Assembly (NCBI RefSeq): GCF_029257255.1
Contig: NZ_JARICI010000004.1
Span: 1 to 64,000, forward strand
Direction of reading: 5' to 3'
DNA: 64,000 nucleotides
Source of the DNA: Sporosarcina sp.
GTDB taxonomy: Bacteria; Bacillota; Bacilli; Bacillales_A; Planococcaceae
This document shows positions 2,253 to 50,525 of this stretch, piece by piece (the stretch's first letter is position 1; every line of letters starts with the position of its first letter). The translations under genes and the position numbers were made by a program. Under the pieces are notes generated by a model that saw only the letters and a list, made by a program, of their open reading frames with translations, was not told the origin of the DNA and did not search any database.

Positions 2253-3218
2253 GTGAAGAAAAAATTATTATTGGGGGCGTTTCTTGCGATTCTGGCAAGT
2301 GCTTCTTGGGGCTCAATGTATCCAATTGCAGAAGATGCGTTGCTGCATATGGATCCATTTTATTTTGCGTTGGTCAGATATATTCCAATTGCGCTCGTCT
2401 TCGCCGGGGCGTTACTGTTGATTGAGGGCAAAAGCGCTTTTCGGTCGGAAGGAAATTTCGGACGTATTTTATTCTTTGGCATTATGGGGTTTACTATTTA
2501 TAATTTATTTATCTTTTGGGGGCAGAATCTGCTCGGAAGTGAAGGGGTTGTCTTAGCGTCGGTAATGGAGTCGTTGTCACCTGTCATGGCGATTCTGGTA
2601 GTATGGCTGATCTATCGACAAAAAATCAATCTCTTTACCGTGATGATTATAGTGGGGGCGTTCTTTGGAGTTCTTTTGGTCATAACGAAAGGGGACTTCA
2701 GCTCGCTATTGGCCGCTAACCGCTCGATACCTTTGATCATCCTATTAATATCGGCGGTCGGCTGGGCTTTCTATACGATCGGGGGCAGCCGGTTTCCAGA
2801 TTGGTCCGCGCTGCGCTATTCCACCCTCAGTGTGATCTACGGCACGCTTGCATCAGCGATTGTGATTGTGGTGCTAAGTGTCGTGGATGTCATTCCGTTA
2901 CCAGAGTTGAAATCCGTTTTCGAGATCAAGTATCATATTATCTACATGATTTTAGTCCCCGGCCTATTATCGATTATCGTATGGAATCAAGCGGTCGTCT
3001 TTTTGAAGCCGATCAATACCATTCTGTTTATCAATGTAGCGCCCATTACAACGATTATTATCCGGGTTTTCCAAGGCCATACGATCAACGTCTTTGAACT
3101 GATTGGAGTGGCGATCGTTTGTTTGATGATTGTCATTAATAACGTGTATCAGCGTATAGAAGCAAAGAAATTGAATGTGGCGGAAGAGCAGGATGTGCTT
3201 TCACCGACCTCAAAATAG
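2253..3218 (+). CDS. EamA/DMT family transporter
   Basis: A 321-residue very hydrophobic protein with about ten membrane segments in two halves, each resembling an EamA domain (first half ASWGSMYPIAEDALL; second half around WAFYTIGGSRFPDW and the closing helix GVAIVCLMIVINNVY). Family members export metabolites or amino acids by proton exchange; substrate unknown. The start is GTG at 2253 (MKKKLLLG). Only a weak ribosome site (GAGTTGAG) precedes it. A copy of the 80-bp palindromic repeat begins 8 nt after the stop, so the repeat hairpin may act as its terminator. Confidence 0.85.
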   Translation: MKKKLLLGAFLAILASASWGSMYPIAEDALLHMDPFYFALVRYIPIALVFAGALLLIEGKSAFRSEGNFGRILFFGIMGFTIYNLFIFWGQNLLGSEGVVLASVMESLSPVMAILVVWLIYRQKINLFTVMIIVGAFFGVLLVITKGDFSSLLAANRSIPLIILLISAVGWAFYTIGGSRFPDWSALRYSTLSVIYGTLASAIVIVVLSVVDVIPLPELKSVFEIKYHIIYMILVPGLLSIIVWNQAVVFLKPINTILFINVAPITTIIIRVFQGHTINVFELIGVAIVCLMIVINNVYQRIEAKKLNVAEEQDVLSPTSK

Positions 3219-3305: not shown

Positions 3306-3581
3306 CCTTCCCTTTAAGTGAAGCAGTGAAAACGGTCAGATAAGTTCCGAACAACAAGCCCTCCAGCATTTGTTGGAGGGCTGATTCATTTATTTAGTTA
3401 GGTGATCTGACAATTATGCAGCATCATTAGAACAGGCATGTTGAACGTCACCGGCATAGAGCGGCCCATCAGCGAACTGGAGTGTCGATACCAAACCAAC
3501 AGTTTCCGTGAATGATATTGCGGCTGTCTCCAAGATTATAATCAAGCCACCCTGCACTTATTCCGGTAAACGTATTACCTA
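3306..3581. other. intergenic stretch between repeat and thioesterase gene
   Basis: It holds a hairpin (AGCCCTCCA 3357-3365 with TGGAGGGCT 3374-3382) that could terminate transcription from either side. It also has a 47-codon minus-strand open frame (3414-3557) starting at GTG with no convincing ribosome site and no recognised homology. The latter could be a gene remnant. Nothing else was recognised. Confidence 0.5.
3357..3390 (+). terminator. hairpin, possible terminator
   Basis: A 9-bp perfect stem AGCCCTCCA/TGGAGGGCT with an 8-nt loop, followed by a T-rich but interrupted tract (GATTCATTTATTT). It lies between convergent genes. Confidence 0.5.
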
Positions 3582-4037
3582 TTAAGAAATTTGCGGTGCT
3601 TTTTCGTTGTCATTGATTCGTTGTTTCACCCAGTCTGGAACGATAATCGACTTTTTCGTTTTACTATCTAAAATAATGAGGGTTGTCCAATTCGATGCAA
3701 TGACTTCACCCGTAGATTTTCGCTGTATGACGCTTTCCAATGTAAAGGATTTGCTGCCGAAGCGGGATGTGCGCACTTTGATCACTAATTCTTCACGTGC
3801 ATACGCTTCACTGTGGAATCGGCAATAAATGTCACCAACGACGAACATTAAATCTTCCTCGTAAAACCCTAATTCCTCTAGATAATCCGCGCGACCCTGT
3901 TCAAAATACAAACTATAGCTTGTATTATTGACGTGTGTATATAAATCCGTTTCGCAAACCCGTACCTTGGTATATGTTGCAAAGGTGAACTTCTCCAACC
4001 ATTCTTCTAAATTCGGCTTGATATAGTCTGCACTCAT
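3582..4037 (-). CDS. hotdog-fold acyl-CoA thioesterase (4HBT-like)
   Basis: 151 residues, the usual size for YbgC/4-hydroxybenzoyl-CoA thioesterase-type hotdog proteins. The N-terminal TKVRVCETDLYTHVNNTSY matches the 4HBT pattern (R..D.D..GHVNN..Y), although the usual catalytic Asp region reads CETDLYTH. It would hydrolyse an acyl- or aroyl-CoA. It is the last gene of a leftward set; its ATG overlaps the stop of the hydrolase (shared base 4037), so the two are translationally coupled. The set is read from the sigma-54 promoter at 5331-5346. Confidence 0.85.
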   Translation of the reverse strand: MSADYIKPNLEEWLEKFTFATYTKVRVCETDLYTHVNNTSYSLYFEQGRADYLEELGFYEEDLMFVVGDIYCRFHSEAYAREELVIKVRTSRFGSKSFTLESVIQRKSTGEVIASNWTTLIILDSKTKKSIIVPDWVKQRINDNEKAPQIS

Positions 4038-4951
4038 TATTGTGCCTCCTTCGTTAAATGTTGGATCAACCAGTCTGCCGCTTCTTGCTGTGCCTGTTCG
4101 AAGGTCCCACCATCGTATAAATCAAAGTGTCCTTTTGGCAGCTTCACTAACTTTTTTGGTTCAGTTATTTTTTCATTAAACACATCAATGGCCGGGTCTG
4201 GCGGCGTTACTCCGTCTTCCATCGCCACAATCATTAGCAACGGTGTAGGGGAAATGAGGTCGGCGTTGGATGCGGGAAAATACTCCATATACTTTTCCAT
4301 TGATTCAAGTGTCAGCCGGTTTTCCCAAGTGGGTGCAATTTTTTTTGCTTTGTTCATAAACCAATTGTACGCTTCGTGATGGGTTTGGGCACAGTTTTGC
4401 CCATCTTCGCTAACGACTTTAATATATTCGATTGGTGCACCTTCGTATCGTGCTTGCCGGTATTCAATCAGTTTTTTCGTGTAGGCGTCTAAATTGTCTT
4501 TACCCATCTTTTTCTCCATGCCAATACGACCGCGAATTGTCGGAACCTGTGAGACGATTGCCTTTACACGACGGTCGATTGCACCCACTTGCAATACATG
4601 GCCTCCGCTATAAGAGCTTCCCCAAATACCGATTTGATCAGAATCAATAAACTCCTGCGACGCCATCCATGAAATCGCATTACGATAGTCTTCAATTTGC
4701 ATCAACGGATCCATGTGCTGACGATTTTCTCCTTCGCTCTCACCGAAATTCCGGTAGTCAAAGACGAGAACTGCTAAACCCGACTCTGCAAATCTTTTGG
4801 CATATCCCGGTAAAAATACTTCTTTTACCAAACTAAATCCATGTGCCATAACTACGGCTGGAAAGGATGTGTTTTCATCTCCATCTGGTCGATATAAAAG
4901 CCCCCTGCACGTAATGCCTTCACTTAGGAATGTAATTTTATCTACTTTCAT
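4037..4951 (-). CDS. alpha/beta hydrolase
   Basis: 304 residues. AHGFSLVKEVFLPGYA supplies the oxyanion region. The nucleophile elbow is GSSYSGG (a GxSxG motif) about residue 110. A late Asp (EDGVTPPD) and His (KGHFDLYDG) complete a triad. It resembles the dienelactone hydrolase/acyl-peptidase-like group that acts on small esters or lactones; the true substrate is not visible. It lies between the muconolactone-isomerase-like gene (26 nt upstream) and the thioesterase (1-nt overlap), consistent with one leftward transcript in the divergent catabolic cluster. Confidence 0.85.
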   Translation of the reverse strand: MKVDKITFLSEGITCRGLLYRPDGDENTSFPAVVMAHGFSLVKEVFLPGYAKRFAESGLAVLVFDYRNFGESEGENRQHMDPLMQIEDYRNAISWMASQEFIDSDQIGIWGSSYSGGHVLQVGAIDRRVKAIVSQVPTIRGRIGMEKKMGKDNLDAYTKKLIEYRQARYEGAPIEYIKVVSEDGQNCAQTHHEAYNWFMNKAKKIAPTWENRLTLESMEKYMEYFPASNADLISPTPLLMIVAMEDGVTPPDPAIDVFNEKITEPKKLVKLPKGHFDLYDGGTFEQAQQEAADWLIQHLTKEAQ

Positions 4952-4976
4952 TCAAGTCAACTCTCTTTCTGTAACA

Positions 4977-5282
4977 TTAATTTTTCCAACGTTTTTTTAC
5001 GTCTTCTCCAAAATCCAAATATGGACGAACGGGTGTCATTTCTTCTATTGTTATATAATCTGCCAATGGTAGCTGGGCTGTGAATACCCGATCTAACTCA
5101 TCGTGTGAATCTGCATCATAAATTAAAATGACTTCTTTGCTGCCTGCCACTTTATAGGCACTGACAATTTTGTCTGCTTGGAGTGCTTTACTACCGACGG
5201 CAATTTCTTTCTCCCATAAAGCCCATAATTCCTCAGGCGATAATTCTTTTTGCTGCACGGAGACACGAATATAAAATAACAT
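4977..5282 (-). CDS. muconolactone delta-isomerase-like protein
   Basis: With the start at 5282 (MLFYIRVSVQ) the product is 101 residues, the size of muconolactone isomerase (CatC) family ferredoxin-like proteins. AGGTGG lies 8 nt upstream of this ATG, and a longer in-frame start at 5342 would overlap the sigma-54 promoter, so the short form is preferred. ELWALWEKE followed by SAYKVAGSKEVILIYDADSHDELD and LPLADYITIE fits the family pattern. Members isomerise lactones or serve as small dimeric binding proteins. It is the first gene of the leftward sigma-54 transcript. Confidence 0.7.
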   Translation of the reverse strand: MLFYIRVSVQQKELSPEELWALWEKEIAVGSKALQADKIVSAYKVAGSKEVILIYDADSHDELDRVFTAQLPLADYITIEEMTPVRPYLDFGEDVKKRWKN

Positions 5283-5330
5283 ATACACTTCCACCTTTCT
5301 ATTTTCATTTCCATCCTCCTCTACTACATA

Positions 5331-5346
5331 TGCAAGTTTCATACCA
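5331..5346 (-). promoter_or_regulatory. sigma-54 promoter for the leftward operon
   Basis: On the minus strand the sequence reads TGGTATG-AAAC-TTGCA, matching TGGCACG-N4-TTGCW with GG and GC elements at the right spacing. It is nearly the same sequence as the rightward promoter (TGGCATG-ATAC-TTGCA). The start codon at 5282 is about 50 nt downstream. Confidence 0.75.
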
Positions 5347-5396
5347 CATTCAATTTCCGTGTTGGCAAGGGGAGAGAGAAGGAGAACGAAAATTTC

Positions 5397-5414
5397 TGAT
5401 TACCTTTCTAATCA
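5397..5414. promoter_or_regulatory. inverted repeat, candidate activator site 1
   Basis: TGATTA-CCTTTC-TAATCA is a perfect 6-bp inverted repeat about 50 bp upstream of the leftward sigma-54 promoter. It has the same architecture as the next site, 31 bp (about three helical turns) away centre to centre. Likely bound by the Fis-type activator encoded at 11117. Confidence 0.55.
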
Positions 5415-5424
5415 TTTTTTTGCC

Positions 5425-5448
5425 TTTTGATTACTTTCGGAATCAAAA
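5425..5448. promoter_or_regulatory. inverted repeat, candidate activator site 2
   Basis: TTTTGATT-ACTTTCGG-AATCAAAA is a perfect 8-bp inverted repeat sharing the TGATT...TTTC...AATCA pattern of site 1. A further half site TGATTCC is at 5463-5469. It lies about 40-60 bp upstream of the rightward sigma-54 promoter, a usual enhancer distance. Confidence 0.55.
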
Positions 5449-5485
5449 AACCTTGCTTTCATTGATTCCTATGCATCTTTCAAAT

Positions 5486-5501
5486 TGGCATGATACTTGC
5501 A
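5486..5501 (+). promoter_or_regulatory. sigma-54 promoter for the rightward operon
   Basis: TGGCATG-ATAC-TTGCA departs from the sigma-54 consensus TGGCACG-N4-TTGCA at one position only and is followed by an A/T-rich start region. The first start codon is at 5564. No good sigma-A promoter was seen nearby. Confidence 0.85.
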
Positions 5502-5563
5502 ATATAGATTAGCACACTAGTGAAGGTGCATTTAGGGAGAGTCTTTTATTTGGAGGGATTTGA

Positions 5564-6559
5564 ATGGGGAAAAAAGAAGATGTTTTGAAGGCGCTATCAG
5601 ACCAAATGGTTTTGCCGGTCATCGCAGCACCGATGTTTCTGGTATCTAATCCGGAGCTGGTCACGGCTTGTTGCAGGAATGGGGTCATTGGTTCTTTTCC
5701 TGCACCGAATGCAAGAACGATTGAACAATTAGAAGAGTGGATGATTCAAATTACCACTTCATTAGAAGAACATGCAGGGTCGGGTCAAAAAACAGCTCCT
5801 TGGGCACTCAATATGGTTACCCATCGTACGTATAGCCGATTGCCAGAAGAAGTGGAATTAATTTTACGCTATCAGCCGCAAATTGTGATTACGGCGTTAG
5901 GAAGTCCATCTACAGTCATTGAAGCTGTGCATAGTTATGGCGGGCTTGTATTTGCCGATGTGAATTCGGTGAAGTTCGCCAAAAAGTCCGCTCAGACAGG
6001 GGTTGATGGTCTGATCCTCGTGAGTTCCGGCGCTGGAGGACATACAGGGAATATGAACAGTTTTGCATTCGTGGAAGCAGTTCGACAATTCTTTGATGGC
6101 CTTATTATATTGGCGGGAGGAATTTCTACAGGAAACGGAATTCTTGCGGCCCAATCACTTGGCGCAGATTTAGCTTATATGGGAACCTCCTTCATTTCCA
6201 CGTCAGAAAGTATGGCGCAAGTGGAATATAAAGAAATGGTTGTGGAAGCGGAATTCGATGATATCGTCATGACGGATGCATTTACAGGCGTTCATGCAAA
6301 TATGCTTCGTCCCAGTATTGAAAAAGCGGGACTTGACCCGGAAAAGTTAAAACCGAAAGCAACTATTAATTTTAGTGATCCTCAAGCCGGTACAAAAGCA
6401 TGGAAAAATATTTGGTCAGCAGGACACGGCATTGAATCGGTAACAAACATTCAACCGGCTGCCGACATTATTGCGCAGTTGGAAGAACAGTATCAAGAAG
6501 CGCAAAAGCGTTTAAGCCAAAAAAACTATTGGAACATGCTAAAGGAGGAAATCAAATGA
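5564..6559 (+). CDS. nitronate monooxygenase-like FMN enzyme
   Basis: 331 residues. The N-terminal LPVIAAPMFLVSNPELV and the phosphate-binding tail LAGGISTGNGILAAQSLGAD are characteristic of the nitronate monooxygenase/2-nitropropane dioxygenase TIM-barrel family. The conserved GAGGHTGN carries His160 at the catalytic position. The family oxidises nitronates, but many members act as flavin oxidoreductases of unknown substrate. The start ATG follows TTTGGAGGGATTTGA. It is the first gene after the sigma-54 promoter; its TGA overlaps the ATG of the oxygenase gene (ATGA at 6556-6559), so both proteins are made together. Confidence 0.85.
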   Translation: MGKKEDVLKALSDQMVLPVIAAPMFLVSNPELVTACCRNGVIGSFPAPNARTIEQLEEWMIQITTSLEEHAGSGQKTAPWALNMVTHRTYSRLPEEVELILRYQPQIVITALGSPSTVIEAVHSYGGLVFADVNSVKFAKKSAQTGVDGLILVSSGAGGHTGNMNSFAFVEAVRQFFDGLIILAGGISTGNGILAAQSLGADLAYMGTSFISTSESMAQVEYKEMVVEAEFDDIVMTDAFTGVHANMLRPSIEKAGLDPEKLKPKATINFSDPQAGTKAWKNIWSAGHGIESVTNIQPAADIIAQLEEQYQEAQKRLSQKNYWNMLKEEIK

Positions 6560-7986
6560 CTAAAATACAGACTGAAATAAATCCTTATTTACAAGATAAT
6601 TTATATTCACCTACAAAAGAAGAGCTCTTCGTTGAGGAACTGCCGGTCATTGAAGGAGAAATCCCTTTTGATTTCAGCGGTGTGTATGTTCGTAACGGTC
6701 CGAATCCAAAGTATGAACCAACGGGCCGCCACCATTGGTTTGATGGAGACGGTATGCTGCATGCGGTCTATTTTAAAGATGGGAAGGTCAGTTACAGAAA
6801 CCGCTATGTACACACAAAAGGCTATGAGTACGAAGACAAAACAAAGCAATCTGAATGGGTGGGTCTTCGGGATAATATAGCAAAAAATCCTGAATTTGAA
6901 CCATTGAAAAACACATCCAATACAGATGTTGTCTACCACAATAATAATCTTTTGAGCCTTTGGTATAAGTCAGGGGAACCTTATCGGATTGATGCAAAAA
7001 CATTGGAAACGGTCGGTGTGGAAAATTTTAATAACCAATTAAAAGTACATGTTTCCGCACATTCGAAAGTAGACGAAAATACAGGCGAATTCATATTCTT
7101 CGATTATGGAAATTCCTATCCTTATATGATGTACGGGGTGGTCTCAGCAGACGGAAAAGACGTGCACAGTGTACCAATCGATTTACCTGGCCCGCGTAAC
7201 CCACACGATATGTGGATAACTGAAAAGTATTCGGTTCTGATGGATTTACCTCTATTTGCGAATACGGAAGCATTGAAAAAGGGACGCTATAAAGTGGAAT
7301 TTCATCAGAATATTCCCAGCCGTTTCGGTGTTATTCCACGTCATGGGAATTCCAATGAAATTCGCTGGTTTGAGGCAGATCCTTGCTATATTTACCATTC
7401 TATTAACGCATGGGAAGATGGCGATGAAATTGTGCTGGTCGGCTGTCGTGTTGATCAGCCTGAGCCGCCCAAACGTTCAACCGAGAGTGACATTGAAAGA
7501 ATGATGCAGTTCTTACAATTGAATGCAAAGCTCCACTACTGGCGTTTGAATCTAAAGACAGGTGCTGTTAAAGAAGGTGAATTGGATGATATGAATACTG
7601 AATTCCCTGTCATCAACTTGCACTATATGGGACGCAAAGGCCGTTATTCTTACAACGTGCATATCGATTCTTCCCATACCTTGAAATTCACGGGATTAGT
7701 GAAGTACGACACATGGACCGGCCAATCCCAAAAGTTTCTATTTGATGAGCATTTTTTTGGTTCAGAAGCTGCGTTTGCACCTAAGAAACAGGCACAGTCT
7801 GAGGATGAAGGTTATGTGGTTTGTTATACACATAATGAGGTTACGGATAAATCCGAGCTAGTAATTTTAGATGCTCAGCAGTTCGATTTAGGTCCCGTTG
7901 CCAGAATTGCACTGCCGCACCGTGTACCTATGGGTTTCCATGCAACTTGGATTTCAGGGGAAAACTTCTTCGGTTCAGAAGTTTAA
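6556..7986 (+). CDS. carotenoid cleavage oxygenase family (carotenoid/lignostilbene type)
   Basis: 476 residues from the ATG at 6556, which sits 6 nt after AAAGGAGG; a longer frame from 6529 lacks this site. The N-terminal FSGVYVRNGPNP and WFDGDGMLHAV are family hallmarks. All four iron-ligand histidines are in recognisable contexts: His169 (SAHSKVDENTGE), His217 (NPHDMWITE), His281 (YHSINAWED) and His462 (GFHATW). Members are non-haem Fe(II) dioxygenases or isomerases cutting C=C bonds of carotenoids, apocarotenoids, stilbenes or isoeugenol-type phenylpropenes. The catalytic set is complete, so it should be active. The nearby CoA ligase and thiolase suggest that the cleaved product is carried on as an acyl-CoA. 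Confidence 0.93.
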   Translation: MTKIQTEINPYLQDNLYSPTKEELFVEELPVIEGEIPFDFSGVYVRNGPNPKYEPTGRHHWFDGDGMLHAVYFKDGKVSYRNRYVHTKGYEYEDKTKQSEWVGLRDNIAKNPEFEPLKNTSNTDVVYHNNNLLSLWYKSGEPYRIDAKTLETVGVENFNNQLKVHVSAHSKVDENTGEFIFFDYGNSYPYMMYGVVSADGKDVHSVPIDLPGPRNPHDMWITEKYSVLMDLPLFANTEALKKGRYKVEFHQNIPSRFGVIPRHGNSNEIRWFEADPCYIYHSINAWEDGDEIVLVGCRVDQPEPPKRSTESDIERMMQFLQLNAKLHYWRLNLKTGAVKEGELDDMNTEFPVINLHYMGRKGRYSYNVHIDSSHTLKFTGLVKYDTWTGQSQKFLFDEHFFGSEAAFAPKKQAQSEDEGYVVCYTHNEVTDKSELVILDAQQFDLGPVARIALPHRVPMGFHATWISGENFFGSEV

Positions 7987-8033
7987 TCCATACAATGAAT
8001 AGATCAAGCTTTTAAAAACGAGGGGGCGAAAAT

Positions 8034-9767
8034 ATGATATTGGCAGATCAAACAAAGATCGATGAGTATACAGCAAAAGGATTTTGGGGAACGGAAACAT
8101 TATATGAATTATTTCTGAGGAACGTCAAAAATAAACCGAAAGCCCTTGCAGCCGCTGATCCACTAAATAGGGAAGCGATTTGCTCAGGAGTTCCGCTGCA
8201 GTACACGTATGAAGAACTCTTAGAGCAAGTTGAAACCCTATCGATTTACTTTCTGAAGAATGGTATTCGCAAAGACGACGTTATCGGCATTCAGTTGCCA
8301 AACACGGTTGAAATGCTTCTAACATATTTAGCAATCCTTCGAATCGGTGCTATTGCGACACCGTTTCCTGTTCAGTATAGAAAGCATGAATACAGGAGCC
8401 TTTTAAATTTTACAGAAGCAAAAGCCGTAATCACCATGACGAATATTTTAAAGCATCATACTGCACAAGACTTTGTGGATGTAAAACCAGAAGTTTCTTC
8501 CTTGGAACATATTTTTGCTTGGGGAGACCATGTGCCTGAAGGTGTGATTTCATTAAATACTATCAACATGTCCGAAAAAGATCGTCAAAAAGCGGAAGAA
8601 ATCTGCACTGCTACAGAAAATACTGCGAATGATGTGTTTACAATTTGCTGGACATCCGGAACTGAAGGAACACCTAAAGGCGTACCGCGTACGCATAATG
8701 AGTGGATCATCTCTTCGTATGCGTCTGTAGATGCCGCTGCATTTACAGAAGACGAGGTTCTGCTGAATACATTCCCGATGGTCAATATGGCCGGAATTGC
8801 GGGCATGTTCGTCCCTTGGTTACTTACAAACTGCACATTGATCATGCACCATCCTTTCGATCTACAGACGTTCTTGCGCCAAATTGCTTCAGACCGCGCT
8901 ACCTATACTTTAGCGCCTCCAGCTTTGCTGAATGGAATGTTGAATAATGAAGAGATCCTAAAAATTGCAGACTTTTCATCGCTGCGGGCAATCGGATCAG
9001 GTTCTACTCCGCTATCCCCCTGGATGGTAAAAGGATGGAAAGAAAAATTTGATATCTCCATCATTAATTATTTCGGTTCAAATGAAGGGGCTACATTCAT
9101 TAGTGACCCGCGTGATATTCCGGATCCGGAACAGCGTGCCAATTACTTTCCGCGTCTAGGAGTAAAAGGGCTGGAATGGACTACCAGAATTGCTCATTAC
9201 TTTGAAAGTAAGCTGGTAGATGTGGAAACTGGATCCGTAATAACAGAAAGTGATATACCTGGTGAAATGCGTATTAAAGGGGCCAGTGTATTTCCAGGCT
9301 ATTGGGGACAAGAGGACATCCGTAATGAAGTTTTTGATGAAGAAGGATACTTCTGCACGGGTGATCTATTTGAAATCATTGAAAAAGAAGGAGAGCAGAA
9401 GTTTTACCGCTTCGTCGGCAGAACAAAGGAAATCATCATCCGGGGCGGTGTCAATATTAGCCCGGCAGAAGTAGAATATTTACTTCAAACACATCCCAAG
9501 GTGGCGGAAGTTTCGATTGTCGGTCTCCCTGATAAACGTATGGGTGAAAAAGCCTGTGCTTGTATCGTTTTAAAAGATCACGATAGTTTGCTGACAATAG
9601 AAGAAATAATTCAGTACTTCAAAGACCATGATTATGCGATATATAAAATACCTGAATACGTCTTCTTCCTCGACGAACTGCCTCGTAATCCTGTCGGCAA
9701 AATAATGAAGTATCATTTGAAACAGCAGGTGATAAATTCACCAGAACACATAAAATTAGAGGTGTGA
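8034..9767 (+). CDS. AMP-dependent acyl-CoA synthetase/ligase
   Basis: 577 residues with the ANL superfamily order. The P-loop-like motif TSGTEGTPKG is at 207-216. GSGSTPLSP and NYFGSNEGA follow (the usual YG.TE appears as FGSNEG). The hinge region GYFCTGDLFEI and GRTKEIIIRGGVNISPAEVE is present, and PVGKIMKYHLK carries the catalytic Lys. It activates a carboxylic acid as the acyl adenylate and passes it to CoA. It resembles long/medium-chain or aryl acid ligases; substrate is not readable. GAGGGGG precedes the start by 7 nt. It is third in the sigma-54 operon, 47 nt after the oxygenase. Confidence 0.9.
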   Translation: MILADQTKIDEYTAKGFWGTETLYELFLRNVKNKPKALAAADPLNREAICSGVPLQYTYEELLEQVETLSIYFLKNGIRKDDVIGIQLPNTVEMLLTYLAILRIGAIATPFPVQYRKHEYRSLLNFTEAKAVITMTNILKHHTAQDFVDVKPEVSSLEHIFAWGDHVPEGVISLNTINMSEKDRQKAEEICTATENTANDVFTICWTSGTEGTPKGVPRTHNEWIISSYASVDAAAFTEDEVLLNTFPMVNMAGIAGMFVPWLLTNCTLIMHHPFDLQTFLRQIASDRATYTLAPPALLNGMLNNEEILKIADFSSLRAIGSGSTPLSPWMVKGWKEKFDISIINYFGSNEGATFISDPRDIPDPEQRANYFPRLGVKGLEWTTRIAHYFESKLVDVETGSVITESDIPGEMRIKGASVFPGYWGQEDIRNEVFDEEGYFCTGDLFEIIEKEGEQKFYRFVGRTKEIIIRGGVNISPAEVEYLLQTHPKVAEVSIVGLPDKRMGEKACACIVLKDHDSLLTIEEIIQYFKDHDYAIYKIPEYVFFLDELPRNPVGKIMKYHLKQQVINSPEHIKLEV

Positions 9768-9791
9768 CCGGAAAAGGAGTGAGAGGGCAGC

Positions 9792-10991
9792 ATGGGTGCC
9801 TACATTTATGAAGCAATTCGCACGCCCAGGGGAGCAGGTAAAGCATCTGGCTCTTTAGCATCTGTCCAGCCAATTCAGCTGATTTCCACTTTGTTGCATG
9901 CGCTGGAGGAGCGACATTCATTCGATAAAACGTTGATTGAGGACTTTGTTCTTGGATGTGTGACACAGGTAAAAGATCAAGGGGCGGATTTGGCTAAAAT
10001 CGCTGCAATCTATGCAGGACTGCCGGAATCAGTGAGTGGTGTTACAATTAACCGCTTTTGTGCATCAGGTTTAGATGCTGTCGGTATGGCAGCTGCAAAA
10101 GTGCAGGCGGGATTTGAAAATGTTGTGTTGGCAGGAGGTGTGGAGTCCGTTTCCCGCGTACCCATGCTTTCTGATAAAGGTGCATGGTATGCAGATCCAG
10201 AGGTAAGTAAAAAAACGGGTTTCGTACAAATGGGTGTTTCAGCTGACGTTATCGCAGCGTTAGAAGGTTTTTCAAGAAGGGAATTGGACGAATATGCAGT
10301 AGAATCTCAAAAGCGTTCAGCATATGCAAGAGATAAAGGATATTTTGTATCGTCGATCATTCCTATTTATGATGAGAATCGTAATCTCTTACTAGACCAA
10401 GATGAATTAATTCGAGAAAATAGTACAGTAGAAAGTTTAGCTGCACTTACACCTTCCTTCATCAAATATGGGATAGGTGAAGCGGAGGATAAAATTTACG
10501 AGGCATTTCCTTCACTTGGTAAAATCGAGCATCTGCATCATCCCGGAAATTCCCCCTCCTTAGCGGATGGCGCTTCGTTAGTAGTCGTCGGCAATAAACA
10601 ATCTGGAGAGGCGTTGAACATGAAGCCACGTGCAAAAATTATAGGCGTCGCCAATACTTCGGCTAGTCCATATTTGCTGACAGGCGGCCAGGCAGCCTGC
10701 AAGAAAGTGCTTGACCAGACGAATTTGAGTTTTGATGATATAGATGTAATTGAGTATAATGAAGCATTTGCAGCGACGGTCTTAAAATTTATCCATGATG
10801 AAAGAATCGATCCTTCAAAGGTAAATGTCAATGGCGGCGCTATATCAATGGGCCATGCGCTTGGCGGTACAGGGGGCATGCTGATTGCAACCATTTTAGA
10901 CGAATTGGAAAGAACTGAAAAAAAGCGGGGGCTGGTCGCCATTAGCGGTGGCGGTGGTGTCGGGACGGCCCTGATTCTCGAACGTGTATAA
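9792..10991 (+). CDS. thiolase family protein lacking the second catalytic Cys
   Basis: 399 residues, normal for acetyl-CoA acetyltransferase/3-ketoacyl-CoA thiolase. The nucleophile Cys90 (NRFCASGLDAVG), NEAFA and His355 (SMGHALGGTGG) are conserved. At the C-terminal CxGGG motif the sequence is ISGGGGVGTALILE, so the base Cys is Ser385. Frame and surrounding sequence are intact, so this is a real substitution and not a sequencing slip visible here. It may alter the reaction or favour one direction. Spacing from the ligase is 24 nt with GGAGTGAGAGGG upstream. It is last in the rightward operon and followed by a strong terminator. Confidence 0.88.
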   Translation: MGAYIYEAIRTPRGAGKASGSLASVQPIQLISTLLHALEERHSFDKTLIEDFVLGCVTQVKDQGADLAKIAAIYAGLPESVSGVTINRFCASGLDAVGMAAAKVQAGFENVVLAGGVESVSRVPMLSDKGAWYADPEVSKKTGFVQMGVSADVIAALEGFSRRELDEYAVESQKRSAYARDKGYFVSSIIPIYDENRNLLLDQDELIRENSTVESLAALTPSFIKYGIGEAEDKIYEAFPSLGKIEHLHHPGNSPSLADGASLVVVGNKQSGEALNMKPRAKIIGVANTSASPYLLTGGQAACKKVLDQTNLSFDDIDVIEYNEAFAATVLKFIHDERIDPSKVNVNGGAISMGHALGGTGGMLIATILDELERTEKKRGLVAISGGGGVGTALILERV

Positions 10992-11000
10992 AATAGCGAA

Positions 11001-11040
11001 AGGCAGAATGTCTCTTTGGAGAATTCTGCCTTTTTATTTT
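11001..11040 (+). terminator. rho-independent terminator after the thiolase gene
   Basis: Stem AGGCAGAAT (11001-11009) with ATTCTGCCT (11023-11031), followed by TTTTTATTTT. It separates the enzyme operon from the activator gene. Confidence 0.9.
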
Positions 11041-11116
11041 AATTATTTTACTTTTGAGATAATATAGAATTAACGCTTTGATTCGAAAGCTACTCAATTG
11101 GCTAATATGGGGTGAT

Positions 11117-12478
11117 ATGGTGGCAGACATCTATAAACAAGCATTTCAGAATAGTTTTGATGGTATATGTGTGTTTAATCCACAAGGCAAGGGTCTTGAA
11201 ATTAATAAAGCCGCACAGCGCATCACTGGATTTTCGGCTGAAGAGTTTATTGGAGAAACAGCCAAGCAAGCGCTCCAAAAAGGATATATATCAAAATCTA
11301 TCACGGAAATCATAATCAAAACGAGAAAGCCTGTCACCGAAGTGATTAGCATACGCGGTATCGAAGTTTTAGCAACGGGAAATCCTGTAATTGATGAAAA
11401 CGGACATCTGAAATATATTATCTTAAATGTACGGGATATTTCTGAGTTGAACAACTTGAAACTGGATGTACTGCTTTCAATTGCGCTGCGTCGAAAAAAT
11501 GAAAATCTTACAAGTCCGATTTCCTCTAATCCAGCGACTTTTATTCATTCGGACGATGTCATTTCGGTCAGCCCGAAAATAAAAAAAGTTTTTCAATTGG
11601 CAGCCCGAATTGCAAAAGTGGATTCTTCCATTCTTATTTTAGGGGATTCAGGTGTTGGAAAGGAAGTTGTAGTCAAATTCATTCACGAAAACAGCTCCAG
11701 AGCAACCCGTCCATTCATTAAAATTAATTGTTCGGCGATTCCCCGTGATTTATTGGAATCGGAGTTGTTCGGCTATGAAAAAGGTGCTTTTACAGGCGCC
11801 AATCAGCAAGGGAAAGCCGGACTTTTTGAGGTGGCAAACGGCGGCACCCTGTTTTTGGATGAAATCGGTGATATGCCGATGGATTTACAAGTTAAGCTAT
11901 TGCGGGTTCTGCAAGAATTTGAAATTCGGCGGATTGGTGGAACAAAAGATATCAAAATTGATGTACGCATTGTATCCGCCACAAATAAAAATTTAGAAGA
12001 ACTCATTTTAAAAGAAGCATTTCGGGAAGATTTATACTATCGTCTTAATATTATCCCGATTCATATCCCGCCTTTGCGTGAGCGTCCGGAAGATATCAAG
12101 CAGCTGGCTCATTTATTTCTAAACCGAACAAATCGAAAATATGGGCTTGAACGGTATTTTCAGCCGGGGTTGGTGGAATTGCTCCATCAATATGAGTGGC
12201 CCGGAAATATTCGAGAAATGGAAAATATGATTGAGCGGCTCGTCGTCACAGCAGATCAAGACGAAATCAGCTGGAGCAGCCTGCCGTTCATTGTCGATTA
12301 TCCCGATCTAAGCGAACATTATTCGTTGAAAGCGACTTTGGAGGAAATTGAGAAAAAGATTATTATGGAAAAACTTCAAACGTACCGAACTACGCGCAAA
12401 TTGGCTCAGGTGCTGGGCATCAGCCAATCAGCAGTTGTGAAGAAAATAAAAAAGTATGGGATTTTGTATGAGGATTGA
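11117..12478 (+). CDS. sigma-54-dependent activator (PAS - AAA+ - Fis HTH)
   Basis: 453 residues from ATG 11117, which follows GGGGTG; an upstream in-frame ATG at 11078 lacks a ribosome site. Domains in order: one PAS (about 5-120), AAA+ domain with Walker A GDSGVGKE 176-183, the sigma-54 contact loop GAFTGA 223-228, Walker B LFLDEIGD 245-252, and a C-terminal Fis-type helix-turn-helix (RKLAQVLGISQSAVVKKIKK). The PAS domain presumably senses a small molecule and there is no receiver domain. It lies directly after the operon and is the obvious activator of both sigma-54 promoters at 5331 and 5486, via the inverted repeats between them. Confidence 0.93.
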   Translation: MVADIYKQAFQNSFDGICVFNPQGKGLEINKAAQRITGFSAEEFIGETAKQALQKGYISKSITEIIIKTRKPVTEVISIRGIEVLATGNPVIDENGHLKYIILNVRDISELNNLKLDVLLSIALRRKNENLTSPISSNPATFIHSDDVISVSPKIKKVFQLAARIAKVDSSILILGDSGVGKEVVVKFIHENSSRATRPFIKINCSAIPRDLLESELFGYEKGAFTGANQQGKAGLFEVANGGTLFLDEIGDMPMDLQVKLLRVLQEFEIRRIGGTKDIKIDVRIVSATNKNLEELILKEAFREDLYYRLNIIPIHIPPLRERPEDIKQLAHLFLNRTNRKYGLERYFQPGLVELLHQYEWPGNIREMENMIERLVVTADQDEISWSSLPFIVDYPDLSEHYSLKATLEEIEKKIIMEKLQTYRTTRKLAQVLGISQSAVVKKIKKYGILYED

Positions 12479-12537: not shown

Positions 12538-12617
12538 GTGCCTGTGTGCCAAACAAACATGAAAGTTTAAACATTCATGTTTATTCAAACAAACATGAAT
12601 GTTTCATGCACAGGCAC
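12538..12617 (+). repeat. 80-bp palindromic repeat, full copy (R3)
   Basis: Same length and ends as the copy at 3226-3305 (GTGCCTGTGTGCC...CATGCACAGGCAC). Arms of the inner palindrome AACATTCATG/CATGAATGTT are intact. The dnaB-like homology begins immediately after its last base. Confidence 0.85.
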
Positions 12618-13096
12618 CTTCTCAAAAGGTCAGCCAGATTAAAGCGACAGCCAGAAAAATCATGAAGGAAAATCCGAATAAACAGCCTATCATCTTTATC
12701 GACTACTTGCAGATTATCCGGCCTGACGGGAATCCAGGCAACCAAACGCAGAGTATCGGCCAAATCAGTGCAGATCTAAAAAACATGGCCAAGGAGTTCA
12801 ATTGCCCGGTCGTCGTACTGTCGCAACTATCGAGGGCAGTCGAACAACGCCACGACAAGCGGCCACTCATGAGTGATCTGCGTGACTCGGGAAATATCGA
12901 GCAGGATGCAGACGTGGTGGCCTTCCTCTATCGAGATGATTATTACCATAAAAGATCCACACCGAGAGATGAGCTGGAAATTGAAATCACCAAGCACCGC
13001 AACGGTCCGACCGGCAGAGTCACCGTGACGTACATCAAAGAAACCGTCGAACTTTGTGATAGCAAACCAACCAGAAGTAAAGGGAGCGAAGCGTAA
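12618..13096 (+). pseudogene. replicative helicase DnaB, C-terminal fragment
   Basis: The frame carries KVSQIKATARKIMKENP, the Walker B-like FIDYLQII, VVLSQLSRAVEQR, LMSDLRDSGNIEQDADVV, FLYRDDYY and ITKHRNGPTG. These are C-terminal RecA-fold motifs of DnaB-family helicases. Only about 160 residues survive; the N-terminal domain, linker and Walker A are missing. Homology starts exactly at the end of the palindromic repeat, and an upstream ATG (12599) lies within the repeat. It is a relic, phage-type or chromosomal. It overlaps the start of the next gene (TAATG at 13096). Confidence 0.8.
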
Positions 13097-14377: not shown

Positions 14378-15691
14378 TTAGTTGATGGAGCATTCATTCA
14401 CTATCTCCATCAAATCAGCAAGCGAACGCTCCACCTCACCCAGATGAAACAGTAAAATCACCACCCGCTGATCCCCCGAACGATAACAAAAAGAATTTGC
14501 TGCATGATCCTCAAAAGCCGCACTCCACGGATAAATCATGACGATGCATTCGGCATTATATTTTTGATGGTAGGCGTACATCTGATACATATCCGCCTGA
14601 GAAATGCCGAAATTAATGTCTGGTTTGTTCTTCAGAATTTTCCACTTCGTATCCATAACCATACACTGATCTTCCTTCTGCAATACAATATCCGGCTGCA
14701 GCTGAAAACGTCGTGGATCATCAAACAGATAAAATCTGCGGTCCTGGGTCCGCAACTTAACAGGCAAATGCCTCAGCTTAAGTTTCAATAGCTGGCTTAT
14801 ATAATTCTCAAACACCTTCTCCATCGGGAACAGGAGCGCAAACGACAGCGTACTTCCTGAAAATACGGTAAAGCTCTTATTATCCAGAAAGACCCTGCAC
14901 CATCGCAGTGCCTGTCCGTACATCTGGGTGCTCCGGTTATGGTCGATCGAGCGGAACGCCTGCTTGTAGTCCGTTATATCCGCCACCTGAAAATGCTCCA
15001 GCAGCTCATTGATCGACTTCCTGTTCTGCGGGTTGGACGACTTGGACCTCGCATTGAGCAAAGCTGCCCTGATCAGCCGGTTTTCCACGCCGTTCACACT
15101 CAGCTGATCATACGTAATATAGAACCGTTCTTTATGTGCCAAGTTGTAACGGATATGCTGGGAAATCTGCAGTTTCCCCTTAAAGAACGGCTGATTCCCC
15201 TCGACTTCTTCATATGTGCTCTTCAAGCCGCGCTTCACGAGCCATTGCACCTCATCGATGAACATCTTGATGAATATCTCCAACAACGTATCATCCGATA
15301 AATCCATATTCGCTTTATTCGCCTTTTTATTCGGAATGTCAGGAAGGCTGCTCAGCATATCGAGCGCAATCCGTTTGACTTCTTCTTCCGAATGCTCTTT
15401 TTCAGGCGAATGAATTTTCGGTAGGATCTCGATTTCCGTTCCATCTTTCATCTTCAGCAGCCCGATATAATTCCTCACACGAATGACTTTCCCGATTCCC
15501 CTCATGTTCGAAAGCGTCATAAACAGGGAAGTGTCGTCCAGCTCATCCAGCCCGCTGTTTTCAAGTACGAACGTTTCGAGCTGGCCAAACGTAGAAGGAT
15601 CGAGCGCATGAAATCCCGAGCGGTCAACGGTTTTGCCGCAAGTGAAGGTATCAAACTCTTTTACCGTATAACGATTCTGCATATTATTCAT
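14378..15691 (-). CDS. mcrC: McrC, nuclease subunit of the McrBC 5-methylcytosine restriction system
   Basis: 437 residues from ATG 15691 (MNNMQNRYTV), which sits just after AAAGGGA. A much longer frame start would lie inside mcrB. The N-terminal region binds McrB; the C-terminal half has the PD-(D/E)xK core QPDIVLQ...MVMDTKWK near residue 345 and a later SQADMYQMYAY helix typical of McrC. It cuts DNA when activated by the McrB NTPase ring. The coding start overlaps the last codons of mcrB by 8 nt, so both are co-translated on one leftward transcript. Confidence 0.88.
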   Translation of the reverse strand: MNNMQNRYTVKEFDTFTCGKTVDRSGFHALDPSTFGQLETFVLENSGLDELDDTSLFMTLSNMRGIGKVIRVRNYIGLLKMKDGTEIEILPKIHSPEKEHSEEEVKRIALDMLSSLPDIPNKKANKANMDLSDDTLLEIFIKMFIDEVQWLVKRGLKSTYEEVEGNQPFFKGKLQISQHIRYNLAHKERFYITYDQLSVNGVENRLIRAALLNARSKSSNPQNRKSINELLEHFQVADITDYKQAFRSIDHNRSTQMYGQALRWCRVFLDNKSFTVFSGSTLSFALLFPMEKVFENYISQLLKLKLRHLPVKLRTQDRRFYLFDDPRRFQLQPDIVLQKEDQCMVMDTKWKILKNKPDINFGISQADMYQMYAYHQKYNAECIVMIYPWSAAFEDHAANSFCYRSGDQRVVILLFHLGEVERSLADLMEIVNECSIN

Positions 15692-17549
15692 AAATCCCTT
15701 TGTATGCTGCAGGCTTAAGAAGTGCTGCTTCCTGTAAGCGGTATATCTTCCTTTCTCCGATATCGATGGAAGAGCCACCGAAGAGTTTGGCCGGATCGAC
15801 TGTAATCTCCTGAACAAATTGATGTGCAGGGTCTTTATCATGGTCTCCCAGCACGAGCTGGATCATCTGCCAGTCATCGTAAAAGTACTCTTGCAGCAAC
15901 GGGATGATGGAATGTCTGAATATGTCCGCCAGCTTCTGCATGTCGGGATTCTCCCTCAACGGCATGAAGAACGCATGGCCGATTACATGATCGCGGTCAA
16001 AGAGCACTTCAATCCGCTCATTCATCTTGGCAAGCATCGCATCGATCCGGATGGATTCCAAATCGATCGATTGCAGCAACGCTGGTTCAGGCAGCAGTTC
16101 GATAAACCGAAACCGGCGTCTCAGTGCGGTATCGAGCTGGGCAATCGAGCGGTCCGCCGTGTTCATCGTGGCCAGAATGGTGACATTGTCAGGCACCCCG
16201 AATTCACTTTGGGAGTAGGGGAGCCGTAACTTCATCGCTTCCGGCCGGCCCAGCCGTTTAGACGGCTCGATCAGCGTAATCAGCTCGCCGAAGATCTTCG
16301 ATATATTTCCGCGATTGATTTCATCTATAATGAATACGAACTGTTCCTGGTTCTTCTGGACCGCATCCGCAGAATTTTTATCGTGCTTCTCCAGAATGCT
16401 CATCACATCCTCCAGCGTAATCCGGTGAAGGCGGTACACGGACGCCAGCGTCATCACCGTATTGCCATTCATCCCATAAATGTCCTGGTCAATATCTTTG
16501 AGCAGCCAATTGACCTTCCGGCTCCTTCTGTAATCACTTTCTTCCGTCAGCCATTCATAGTCGCCAGTAATGATTCCGACGGCGTCTATCGTGCGCTCGT
16601 TCTTCAACGTCAGCACGATATCACCGATCTGCATTTCATTGATGAAATGGGCAATCACCTTCTTACCGCCGGCGCTGCTGTAGTCGGTCGTATCGTCAGG
16701 CTCCTCACCGTATAAATCCCACCCGATCCGTATGCTGTTATTGTTGAAGCAGTCCTGTTTCAGATGATGCAATTTGGAGCCTTTCAGGGAAACTTTCCAA
16801 ATGGACGGGTTCTCGCGAATTCCAAGATGGTTTTGCTCCTGTATGACCGGCGCTTTCGCCCGCTCACAAAATTGCTTGAAGACACCTGCCTTGATCTCAT
16901 ACTCCAATGTCCGCGAACTGTCCTCAATCTCGGATTCCATGATGGGCTTGATCCCTTCAATGAATTCCTCGTAGCCGTAGGATTGATGGAAGGTAGTAAA
17001 CGCAATGCGCCCATTTTCCCGGTATTCTTCGAATCGTTCACGCACAGTATCATAGCCGCCCTGATCGATTTCCGACTGTACGTCCGAAACATCCTTCTCT
17101 TCGACCTTCGCCACTGCCCAGGCCGTCGTACTATAGGTTTTCCCGGTCCCCGGCGGTCCGAACAGGATGATGTTGTCACCGTTGGCGGCAGAATGGACAG
17201 CTGGCGGTTTTGTGACAGCAGATGTGCCGCTGTTTTTCCCAGCGCGTTCTTTTAGGAATTTCAGATAGAATTCTGAGCCATAATAAAGTGCCTTGTTTCC
17301 CATAAGCTTATTGATAGCTTCGTAATTTGGAGCGTTCTCCATCAAGTCTTTTATGTCCTTGAACTGACCCGGGTTGGATATCGTGTAGAGATCAGGTAGA
17401 ACCTGCCCGCCGGTATCAAGTTTAGGGGGAGTGTGTGTAAGACTGTTGATATACGAAGAAATCGTACTTTTTTGAAATGGTACATTATTGTTATTGATTT
17501 GTTTTCGCATCCATGTTCTGAATTCATCTTTTAGATTTTGGTTTGTCAA
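15684..17549 (-). CDS. mcrB: McrB-type AAA+ GTPase with an EVE-like insertion
   Basis: 621 residues. Walker A GPPGTGKT is at 131-138, Walker B-like FIIDEINRGN near 405, then the McrB/MoxR hallmark MNTADRSIAQLD and an arginine-rich DTALRRRF. Between Walker A and Walker B is an insertion of about 145 residues (about 250-395) beginning IWKVSL with IRIGWDLYGE, GDIVLTLKN and AVGIITGDYEW. That pattern (W near the start, GDIV, GxI) resembles EVE/PUA-like modified-base readers. The protein drives the McrC nuclease after recognising modified DNA. AAGGGGAGC precedes the ATG. No methylase gene is adjacent, as expected for a modification-dependent system. Confidence 0.88.
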   Translation of the reverse strand: MTNQNLKDEFRTWMRKQINNNNVPFQKSTISSYINSLTHTPPKLDTGGQVLPDLYTISNPGQFKDIKDLMENAPNYEAINKLMGNKALYYGSEFYLKFLKERAGKNSGTSAVTKPPAVHSAANGDNIILFGPPGTGKTYSTTAWAVAKVEEKDVSDVQSEIDQGGYDTVRERFEEYRENGRIAFTTFHQSYGYEEFIEGIKPIMESEIEDSSRTLEYEIKAGVFKQFCERAKAPVIQEQNHLGIRENPSIWKVSLKGSKLHHLKQDCFNNNSIRIGWDLYGEEPDDTTDYSSAGGKKVIAHFINEMQIGDIVLTLKNERTIDAVGIITGDYEWLTEESDYRRSRKVNWLLKDIDQDIYGMNGNTVMTLASVYRLHRITLEDVMSILEKHDKNSADAVQKNQEQFVFIIDEINRGNISKIFGELITLIEPSKRLGRPEAMKLRLPYSQSEFGVPDNVTILATMNTADRSIAQLDTALRRRFRFIELLPEPALLQSIDLESIRIDAMLAKMNERIEVLFDRDHVIGHAFFMPLRENPDMQKLADIFRHSIIPLLQEYFYDDWQMIQLVLGDHDKDPAHQFVQEITVDPAKLFGGSSIDIGERKIYRLQEAALLKPAAYKGIYE

Positions 17550-38427: not shown

Positions 38428-38488
38428 AGTTGAAGAATATGTCTGTGTTCATTTGAAGCGACATTCTGAGAAGGAGTGGAAATGTTCG

Positions 38489-41400
38489 ATGAAAAAGAGA
38501 TTTGGACTGAATTATTTTAAACCTGTCGAAAGTTATTCTGGAAATTGGTCGGTGCTTGAGGAAAAGAATCGTGATTGGGAAAACATGTACCGTCAGCGCT
38601 GGTCGCATGACAAAGTGGTGCGTACAACGCACGGCGTAAACTGTACAGGCTCATGCAGCTGGAAAGTGTTTGTCAAGAACGGCATCATCACATGGGAAAA
38701 TCAGCAAATCGATTATCCGTCCTGCGGGCCCGATATGCCGGAGTTCGAACCACGCGGCTGTCCGCGCGGTGCATCGTTTTCATGGTACGAATACAGCCCG
38801 CTGCGCGTAAAGTATCCTTATATACGAGGAAAACTGTGGCGCATGTGGAATGAAGCACTTCAGGAAACGAAAGATCCTGTGGCTGCCTGGACTTCCATCG
38901 TCGAAGATCCTGCTAAATCCAATGAATACAAAAAAGCACGCGGGAAAGGCGGGCATGTCCGCATTCATTGGCGCGATGCCACGATGCTGATTGCAGCGCA
39001 GCTGATCTATACTGTGCAGAAATATGGTCCGGACCGTGTGGCAGGGTTTACCCCGATTCCCGCCATGTCGATGGTCAGTTACGCATCAGGCGCGCGTTTC
39101 ATTTCATTATTAGGCGGCGAGATGCTGAGCTTCTATGACTGGTACGCAGATCTTCCGCCATCCTCCCCACAAATTTGGGGCGAGCAGACGGATGTCCCTG
39201 AATCCAGCGACTGGTTCAACGCCGGCTATATCATCATGTGGGGTTCCAACGTGCCGTTGACGCGGACGCCGGATGCACACTTTATGACGGAAGTTCGTTA
39301 TAAAGGAACGAAAGTGGTTTCTGTTGCACCGGACTATGCGGAAAGCGTGACGCACGCAGATGACTGGATCGCGGCAAACCCGGGAACAGACGCGGCAGTT
39401 GCGCAGGCCATGACGCACGTGATCTTGGACGAGTTCTATGAGAAACGCAAAGAGCCAACATTCCTAAACTATGCGAAACAGTATACAGATATGCCGTTTT
39501 TGATTCTATTAGACCCGCATGAAGATTCCTATAAGGCTGGACGTTTCCTAAGAGCGAGCGACCTGGGACAGCAGTCGGAACATGCAGACTGGAAACCGGT
39601 ACTGTTTGATGAAGCGAAAGACGAAATCATTGTGCCAAACGGGACGATGGGTCAGCGCTGGGAGAAGGATGTTAAGTGGAATTTGAAGCTGGATAATGAA
39701 GACGGCACACGTGTCGAACCTGCTCTGTCTGTCGAAAATCATGCAGCTGAATGGAAGGAAATCCACTTCCCTTATTTTGATCAGCGAGGCAACGGTACAT
39801 TCAAACGTCCAATCCCAGCAATGAAAGTGCAGTTTGCGGACGGAACCGAACGTCTGGTGACGACGACATATGATGTCATGATGAGTCAATACGGTGTCAA
39901 CCGGATCGGCAGTGAGCTGGAGGCGACTGGATATGATGATGTTTCTTCTATATATACTCCAGCATGGCAGGAAGCAATTACGAATGTAAAACCTGAACTG
40001 GTTACACAAATTGCAATGGAATTCGCACAGAACGCGATCGATACAGGCGGACGTTCGATGATCATCATGGGCGCAGGTATCAACCACTGGTTCAACAGTG
40101 ACACGATTTACCGAGCGATTCTGAACTTAGTTACATTGACTGCATCGCAAGGAGTCAACGGCGGAGGCTGGGCGCATTATGTCGGTCAGGAAAAATGCCG
40201 CCCGATTGAAGGCTGGAGCACGATTGCTTTCGCGAAAGACTGGCAAGGTCCGCCGCGTCTGCAAAACGCGACGTCATTCTTCTACTTCGCAACGGATCAG
40301 TGGAAATATGAAGAGGCAGGCGCAGATACACTCATGTCCCCGCTTGGCGGAGAAGCAAGATACCAGCACCCTGCGGATTATAACGTACTGGCAGCAAGAC
40401 TTGGCTGGCTGCCGTCGTACCCGCAATTCAACAAAAACAGTCTGCAACTCGTGGAAGAAGCAGCAAAGCAAGGCAAAACGGAAACCAATGAAATCGTCAG
40501 CCATGTCGTCGATCAGTTGACTTCCGGCGAGTTGAACTTTGCGGCAGAAGATCCGGGAGCACCGGAAAACTTCCCGCGTTCGCTGTTCGTCTGGCGTTCG
40601 AACCTGATTTCCAGTTCGGCAAAAGGTCAGGAATATTTCATGAAGCATCTGCTCGGCGCATCGAGCGGTTTGCTGGCCAGTCCGAATGAAGACATGAAAC
40701 CGGAAGAGATGGTCTGGCGTGATGAAGTCGAAGGCAAGCTGGATTTGCTGGTCGCACTCGATTTCCGTATGACTGCCACACCGCTTTACGCGGATATCGT
40801 CTTGCCGGCGGCTACCTGGTATGAAAAAGTAGACCTATCGTCTACGGATATGCACCCGTTCGTTCACCCATTCAATCCGGCGGTTAATCCGCTGTGGGAA
40901 TCACGTTCTGACTGGGATATCTACCGCACGATTGCGCAGACATTCTCTGAACTTGCGAAGATTCATTTGCCGGGTGTCTACAAAGATCTCGTGACATCAC
41001 CGCTTGCGCATGATTCGATCCAGGAGATTGCCCAGCCGTTCGGTGAAGTGAAGGATTGGAGTAAAGGTGAAATCGAAGCCATCCCGGGCAAGACGATGCC
41101 GGGTATGACAATTGTAGAGCGTGATTTCACGAAAATCTATGATAAGTACATTACGCTCGGCCCTTTATTGTCGACAGGGAAGACCGGCGCGCACGGAGTC
41201 AGTTTCTCCGTTGCCGAAGAGTACGAAATGATGAAAGGCATCAATGGTGTCTATGAAGACGATACGATTAAAAATGGCCTGCCGAAACTGTATACGGCAA
41301 AGCATGCAGCGGAAACCATGTTGACACTGTCTTCTGCTACAAACGGAAGGGTCTCGCAAAAGGCATTTGAAGCGGCAGAAGCAGATACGGGGGTAGAGCT

Positions 41401-45013: not shown

Positions 45014-45042
45014 GCGAATGATGAATATTAGGAGAGCATGCT

Positions 45043-47216: not shown

Positions 47217-47232
47217 CAGGAGGCAGAGTGAG

Positions 47233-47763: not shown

Positions 47764-47771
47764 GTAAATAA

Positions 47772-50513: not shown

Positions 50514-50525
50514 GGGGCACAGAAA

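Follow-up and report, generated by a model that had tools for sequence, protein, structure and literature searches.

The β-ketoadipate pathway includes a muconolactone isomerase, a lactone hydrolase, and a thiolase, and the phenylacetyl-coenzyme A (phenylacetyl-CoA; Paa) pathway uses the PaaABCDE oxygenase. Isoprenoid and polyene carbon from plants and algae must be broken down in large amounts in soil and sea, yet no complete set of bacterial genes for its cleavage and use is known to us. Here we analyzed a 64,000-nucleotide stretch of Sporosarcina sp. DNA (NZ_JARICI010000004.1, positions 1 to 64,000; the window), in which positions 3582-12478 hold two divergent operons with seven enzyme genes between them, together with the gene for a sigma-54 activator; one of the enzymes is an RPE65-family cleavage oxygenase (CCO). 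With the β-ketoadipate pathway this locus shares the fold families of the isomerase, hydrolase, and thiolase, but it has no ring-cleavage or muconate-cycloisomerase gene. With Paa degradation, its relatives outside the Bacillota share a PaaN_2-like aldehyde dehydrogenase (ALDH), a ligase, and a thiolase, whereas the window cluster lacks PaaN; CCO clusters have the CCO in place of PaaABCDE. We are confident that the eight genes form one catabolic unit, which probably cuts a C=C bond of a natural compound and feeds the products into central metabolism.

The host is a Sporosarcina-like bacterium with a 3.27-Mb genome (G000; the window is on contig C89), and the window CCO is 97% identical to that of Sporosarcina aquimarina, the closest relative with a name. 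All eight open reading frames (ORFs) were confirmed, and Pfam placed them in the families given in a first-pass annotation of the DNA, which had described seven enzyme genes in two divergent sets plus an activator. The plus-strand operon consists of NMO, a FabK/nitronate-monooxygenase-like flavoenzyme (5564-6559; PF03060, 2.3e-32); CCO (6556-7986; PF03055, 5.4e-138), whose ORF shares an ATGA overlap with that of NMO; LIG, an acyl-CoA ligase (8034-9767; PF00501 and PF13193); and THL, a FadA-like thiolase whose second Cys is replaced by Ser (9792-10991; PF00108 and PF02803). After THL, on the same strand, comes the activator gene (11078-12478; PF00158 at 1.8e-71, PAS, and HTH_50), whose ORF begins with TTG in the ORF list and has an in-frame ATG at about 11117. 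Across a 281-bp region, the minus-strand operon encodes MIase, a muconolactone-isomerase-like protein (4977-5282; PF02426, 42.3 bits, cut-off 26.7), ABH, a lactonase-like alpha/beta hydrolase (4037-4951; Pfam S15/Abhydrolase_1 and the UilS lactonase model), and TE, a 4HBT_2-type thioesterase (3582-4037; PF13279, 1.5e-16). Two upstream genes, for a short-chain dehydrogenase/reductase (SDR; 1222-2007) and an EamA protein (2253-3218), were considered as members and rejected, because neither accompanies the cluster at its orthologous loci (L003 and L113-L117). The annotation had also stated that the cluster takes up its substrate; this is unsupported, as the unit contains no transporter gene and the EamA-family gene lies just outside it.

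The same set of genes was found in other Bacillota. In an order-level sample of 261 genomes, a CCO match was present in 14, and in six of them (G000, G232, G030, G191, G225, and G218) the CCO was at least 62% identical to that of the window. The full eight-gene set was present in G232, G030, and G191 and in Neobacillus niacini (L003), in which the gene order differs. A class-wide sample, with CCO matches in 7 of 398 genomes, yielded G308, and a search of its family (2 of 24 genomes) yielded G635; both belong to family f29 and carry all eight genes in the divergent order of the window at 65-80% identity. The full set is thus present in six other Bacillota genomes, seven counting the window, and a partial set in two more, G225 and G218, the latter with six of the eight genes by tblastn. 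This recurrence indicates clustering beyond chance. MIase was detected in 4 of the 261 genomes, and these four are the very ones in the sample that carry all eight genes, making its profile informative; NMO was useless for this purpose, with homologues in 259 of 261. The CCOs of G308 and G635 (78-80%) are closer to that of the window than is the CCO of G191 (75-76%), a member of the window's own family, and the same is true of most of their other genes, LIG being the exception (65% versus 66%). This pattern of identities hints at horizontal transfer.

The remaining eight CCO-bearing genomes of the order have another type of CCO (41-45% identity). In the stretches around such CCOs (L118-L126 and L128) there was no match to NMO, while ABH relatives were found near them in L118, L124, and L125 (41-42%) and in L133 (41%), and L123 had weak matches to the ligase (28%), the thiolase (31%), and the activator (41%). 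One Sporosarcina-group genome, G012 (L084, L087-L093, L122, L123, and L126), has eight CCO genes of this other type, marked by the DNAGTD/MSQ motif, some of them with an SDR gene.

The first-pass annotation had read the locus as a divergent sigma-54 regulon with a cleavage oxygenase at its center and two sigma-54 promoters. Outward-facing sites were indeed found for the plus-strand operon (TGGCATGATACTTGCA, 5486-5501, plus strand) and the minus-strand operon (TGGTATGAAACTTGCA, 5331-5346, minus strand), and they rank first and third among the 57 above-threshold sites in the window. The second-ranked site, at 50353, lies within a ThiF-family ORF and is probably a chance match. The site of the CCO operon was present in all nine regions compared (the window, L113-L117, L003, L156, and L157), scoring 14.5-16.0 on our own scale in all seven of the window, L113-L117, and L003. 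Similarly, the divergent site was present in all six loci with a divergent MIase (the window, L113, L114, L115, L156, and L157). The activator, annotated as a PAS-AAA-Fis protein, was borne out as a PAS-AAA+-helix-turn-helix (HTH) protein in which the Sigma54_activat domain, the GAFTGA motif, and the HTH are all present. Between the promoters, a palindrome (TTTTGATT-N8-AATCAAAA, 5425-5448) is a predicted possible activator site. Both operons likely form one regulon, to which the adjacent activator would bind, and the divergent promoters could serve as a reporter for finding the inducer. The activator itself is probably transcribed separately, because a terminator-like hairpin followed by a T-rich run (10998-11034, plus strand; -20.9 kcal/mol, z -5.5) lies between THL and its gene. 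A two-way hairpin with an 11-pair stem found by consensus scan (3357-3382) may close the minus-strand operon, although this is weak evidence because the scan gave 7 terminator-like sites compared with 9.3 in shuffles.

We compared 79 related CCO loci from named records (L003-L081, with L002 excluded) for five core partners: NMO, LIG, two thiolases (THL and an SCP2-type), and a PaaN-like ALDH. The SCP2-type thiolase was near CCO at 36 loci, LIG at 35, THL at 31, and NMO and the PaaN-like ALDH at 16 each; an HxlR-type regulator (36/79) and a Lipocalin_5 gene (9/79) also occurred there. At least one core partner was present at 55 loci and at least two at 39, whereas among 21 controls, each a 20-kb stretch, one had a single partner (THL) and none had two; the identity and length thresholds for partners were chosen after an initial comparison of loci, and the control set is small, with 20 stretches from four cluster-bearing genomes and one from the host. 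By their record titles, loci with at least two partners came from Chloroflexi, Actinobacteria, Alpha- and Gammaproteobacteria, Deltaproteobacteria/Myxococcales, Bacteroidetes (Saprospiraceae and Flammeovirgaceae), and Bacillota. The ALDH common in other phyla is PaaN_2-like (542 of 579 bits, one protein tested), and the extra thiolase found elsewhere is of the PRK06289 type (again one protein tested), of which the host holds only a 34% relative. Taken together, the recurrence of the full set, the conserved sigma-54 sites, and this synteny (39/79 versus 0/21) argue for a real catabolic module, and the annotation's reading of a catabolic regulon built on the oxygenase is upheld.

Three annotated plasmids carry similar gene islands. 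A Sphingopyxis granuli RW412 plasmid carries, like the window, a CCO, NMO, ligase, thiolase, and hydrolase; it adds an SDR, an ALDH, a TonB receptor, and a ring-hydroxylating dioxygenase alpha subunit, and has no MIase. Plasmids of Cupriavidus basilensis DSM 11853 and C. necator NH9 likewise share CCO, NMO, an adenylate-forming ligase, a thiolase, and an alpha/beta hydrolase with the window but add an ALDH, an SDR, transporters, a regulator, and a porin, again with no MIase. Both Cupriavidus CCOs are of the DNAGTD/MSQ type, unlike that of the window, and the motif pattern left the Sphingopyxis CCO untyped. The annotation had called the set one without a described pathway in a Gram-positive bacterium. 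Among the matches listed from open-licence full-text literature, no paper on this gene set appeared, an absence that is not proof; the emphasis on Gram-positives did not hold, since the set is not special to them.

The window CCO scored 461 bits against Pfam RPE65 (cut-off 27), and its AlphaFold2 model, a beta-propeller made from 43 sequences, had a pLDDT of 91.8. By sequence, CCD1 ranked first (8e-86), with the best-placed LsdA entry at 8e-52, and CCD1 also led the Foldseek matches by E-value and identity (33%). For a residue comparison we aligned 98 CCOs after removing six duplicate loci (L114 and L122-L126); these were gathered by similarity to the window protein and hence do not represent the superfamily evenly. 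The four Fe-binding histidines that the annotation had noted correspond to H170, H218, H282, and H463 (numbered with one additional residue at the start), and all four are present in the window CCO and in 98/98. PMC8191317 describes Tyr-101 and Lys-134 of lignostilbene dioxygenases as binding the 4-hydroxyl of the substrate, and PMC12308385 states that MapADO needs the matching pair Y136/K169. In all 98 CCOs the place of Tyr-101 is taken by V, I, L, or M, and that of Lys-134 has no Lys with either gap placement, a one-residue insertion near W137-Y138 being ambiguous in position. The lignostilbene dioxygenases (LsdA, NOV1, LSD4, and P. brassicacearum LSD) therefore share with the window CCO the fold (TM-score 0.86-0.89), the Fe histidines, the Phe-59 equivalent (kept in 96/98), and the occluding Thr (97/98), but not this pair.

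PMC8191317 also describes three second-sphere carboxylates as conserved in characterized carotenoid cleavage dioxygenases. The window CCO keeps two of these, E350 and E417; the equivalent of Glu-135 is absent, as it is in 92/98. Despite the missing Glu, the protein is plainly a member of the RPE65/CCD superfamily. Six rows keep a Glu, four of them with WYESG and the other two cyanobacterial, and in the 14 MSQ-type rows an acid lies a few residues later. The window protein has Asp125 nearby, as do 95/98 in all, where three solved sequences have Ala, Ser, or Gly. Plant CCD1 (Osmanthus fragrans; PDB 7VUD, 9M3E, and 9M6Z), which shares the fold and the four Fe histidines, retains the Glu and has Ala in place of the Asp. 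Asp125 might replace the lost Glu, because strands 125-129 and 132-137 are adjacent in the model. The two cyanobacterial CCOs (L065 and L079) have the canonical Glu with Ala at the Asp125 position, consistent with a swap of two acids; that of L025 has Ala there without the Glu, which speaks against one. The missing Glu would be a natural exception to a feature that PMC8191317 and PMC12051055 describe for the family.

Of the partner enzymes, THL has mycobacterial FadA as its nearest match and contains the nucleophilic Cys (NRFCASG) and the GH histidine (MGHALG) of degradative thiolases. The annotation had called it Cys-less, which is right only for the second, C-terminal Cys: Ser takes its place in the window THL and in eight further copies from Bacillota clusters, and among 43 aligned rows, several of them distant thiolases, this Cys is absent in 30, present in 12, and unreadable in one. 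NMO belongs to the FabK/NMO family, its AGGHTG motif being kept in the 21 aligned rows; it matched Pfam NMO and fell below the FabK equivalog cut-off (TIGR03151, 98.1 of 453.1 bits). We infer that it carries out a C=C reduction or isomerization. The MIase model, of moderate confidence (pLDDT 70), matched ClcF by fold (E 1e-6, TM-score 0.76/0.82), and Pfam MIase was likewise matched, with a score below the muconolactone isomerase equivalog (TIGR03221, 26.8 of 130.6 bits). ABH was below the UilS N-acyl-homoserine lactonase equivalog (NF047920, 168 of 400 bits).

From the genes, their families, the promoter sites, the synteny, and the oxygenase residues, we infer reactions, their order, and a substrate class. 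The compound itself or one of its products would be sensed by the PAS activator, which together with sigma-54 would switch on the two operons. A conjugated C=C bond would be split into two carbonyls by the Fe(II) oxygenase and O2, and the aldehyde would be oxidized to the acid by a dehydrogenase assumed to lie elsewhere in the host, in other phyla often in the cluster. LIG would then form the CoA ester, the NMO-like flavoenzyme would reduce or shift a conjugated double bond, and THL would cleave the β-keto thioester. Bacillota clusters may in addition use MIase and the lactonase-like hydrolase for the isomerization and opening of an (enol-)lactone formed as a by-product, and TE for the release of CoA. 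The absence of the phenol-binding pair, together with the rank of CCD1 as the nearest match by sequence, leads us to favor a non-phenolic conjugated alkene as substrate, most likely an isoprenoid. In full, we propose an inducible module that serves an unsaturated, non-phenolic compound of natural origin, most likely an isoprenoid of the apocarotenoid-like kind; this proposal is plausible but tentative, and we would not yet call it likely.

Several results weigh against this proposal. The unit has no dehydrogenase or β-oxidation genes; the host ALDH is assumed, no search having been made for it, and the only PaaN-like match was one of 23% in L127. The TM-scores of CCD1 (0.88) and LsdA (0.88-0.89) are alike, and the CCO is below the cut-offs of both the 8'-apo-carotenoid 13,14-cleaving dioxygenase equivalog (NF052295, 283.4 of 675 bits) and the lignostilbene oxygenase equivalog (252 of 800 bits). 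In addition, no core partner was found at 24 of the 79 CCO loci, eight of them among the 46 loci of at least 20 kb, and in G225, which has five of the eight genes by tblastn, neither NMO nor MIase nor TE accompanies the CCO.

The main rival is a route in which the ligase acts first. An unsaturated acid would become a CoA ester, CCO would cleave its chain or ring to a CoA-semialdehyde, and a PaaN-type dehydrogenase and thiolysis would follow, by analogy with Paa degradation. PaaN-type enzymes act on CoA-semialdehydes, the PaaN_2-like ALDH lies near CCO at 16/79 loci, and the ligase and thiolases rank among the commonest CCO partners. We nevertheless consider this route rather unlikely: we know of no CCO that acts on a CoA ester, and the Bacillota clusters have no PaaN-like gene. 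A substrate that contains a lactone such as a butenolide, or gives rise to one, might place MIase and the hydrolase at the center as in the β-ketoadipate pathway and would agree with the resemblance of the MIase model to ClcF, with the lactonase-like ABH, and with the ABH relatives near other-type CCOs. Such a substrate appears distinctly improbable, as MIase is confined to the Bacillota clusters among the loci compared, its model has a pLDDT of 70, and both proteins score below their equivalogs.

Degradation of phenolic alkenes (stilbenes, isoeugenol, or lignin dimers) was the leading idea until the residue comparison, after which it was demoted. By TM-score the fold is equally near that of the lignostilbene dioxygenases, and the Phe-59 equivalent and the occluding Thr, which PMC12051055 calls invariable within the stilbenoid clade, are kept. 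However, the absence in 98/98 of the residues described in PMC8191317 and PMC12308385 disfavors a stilbene or isoeugenol, and phenolic alkenes are now an improbable class. The annotation had suggested an apocarotenoid, a stilbene, or a phenylpropene; the apocarotenoid is still possible, though unproven. Turnover of the host's own C30 carotenoids, in place of an outside compound, is very improbable indeed. PF00494 (squalene/phytoene synthase family) was matched in 12 of 12 genomes searched, including the host, but the family fails to track the cluster because three of the 12 have no CCO match. This non-discriminating result led us to set the idea aside; the host match is moreover in two short pieces, and a dedicated sigma-54 activator together with CoA enzymes would better fit an outside substrate. 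The split host match (G000:C6:53490-54073), one longer match in the other genomes, perhaps reflects a frameshift or an assembly error.

It is possible, though on balance doubtful, that the CCO represents a widespread group whose second coordination sphere has been rebuilt, by loss of the Glu and gain of Asp125, and which works inside a multi-phylum, CoA-dependent and O2-dependent, C=C-cleaving counterpart of the Paa and β-ketoadipate routes. If true, the pathway would serve a compound class whose bacterial degradation genes are undescribed. A module that recurs across phyla around one oxygenase is a concrete, testable candidate for isoprenoid and polyene breakdown.

Elsewhere in the window, an ORF directly 3' of the activator (12599-13096) encodes the C-terminal part only of a DnaB-like helicase and is probably a gene remnant. 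At 14378-17549 there is a McrBC-type pair of a PF10117 protein and an AAA_5 protein, for which PADLOC gave no McrBC model match. Finally, positions 38453-56972 carry genes for a nitrate-reductase-like molybdopterin enzyme and for molybdenum-cofactor proteins (MoeA, MoaA-like, and ThiF-family).

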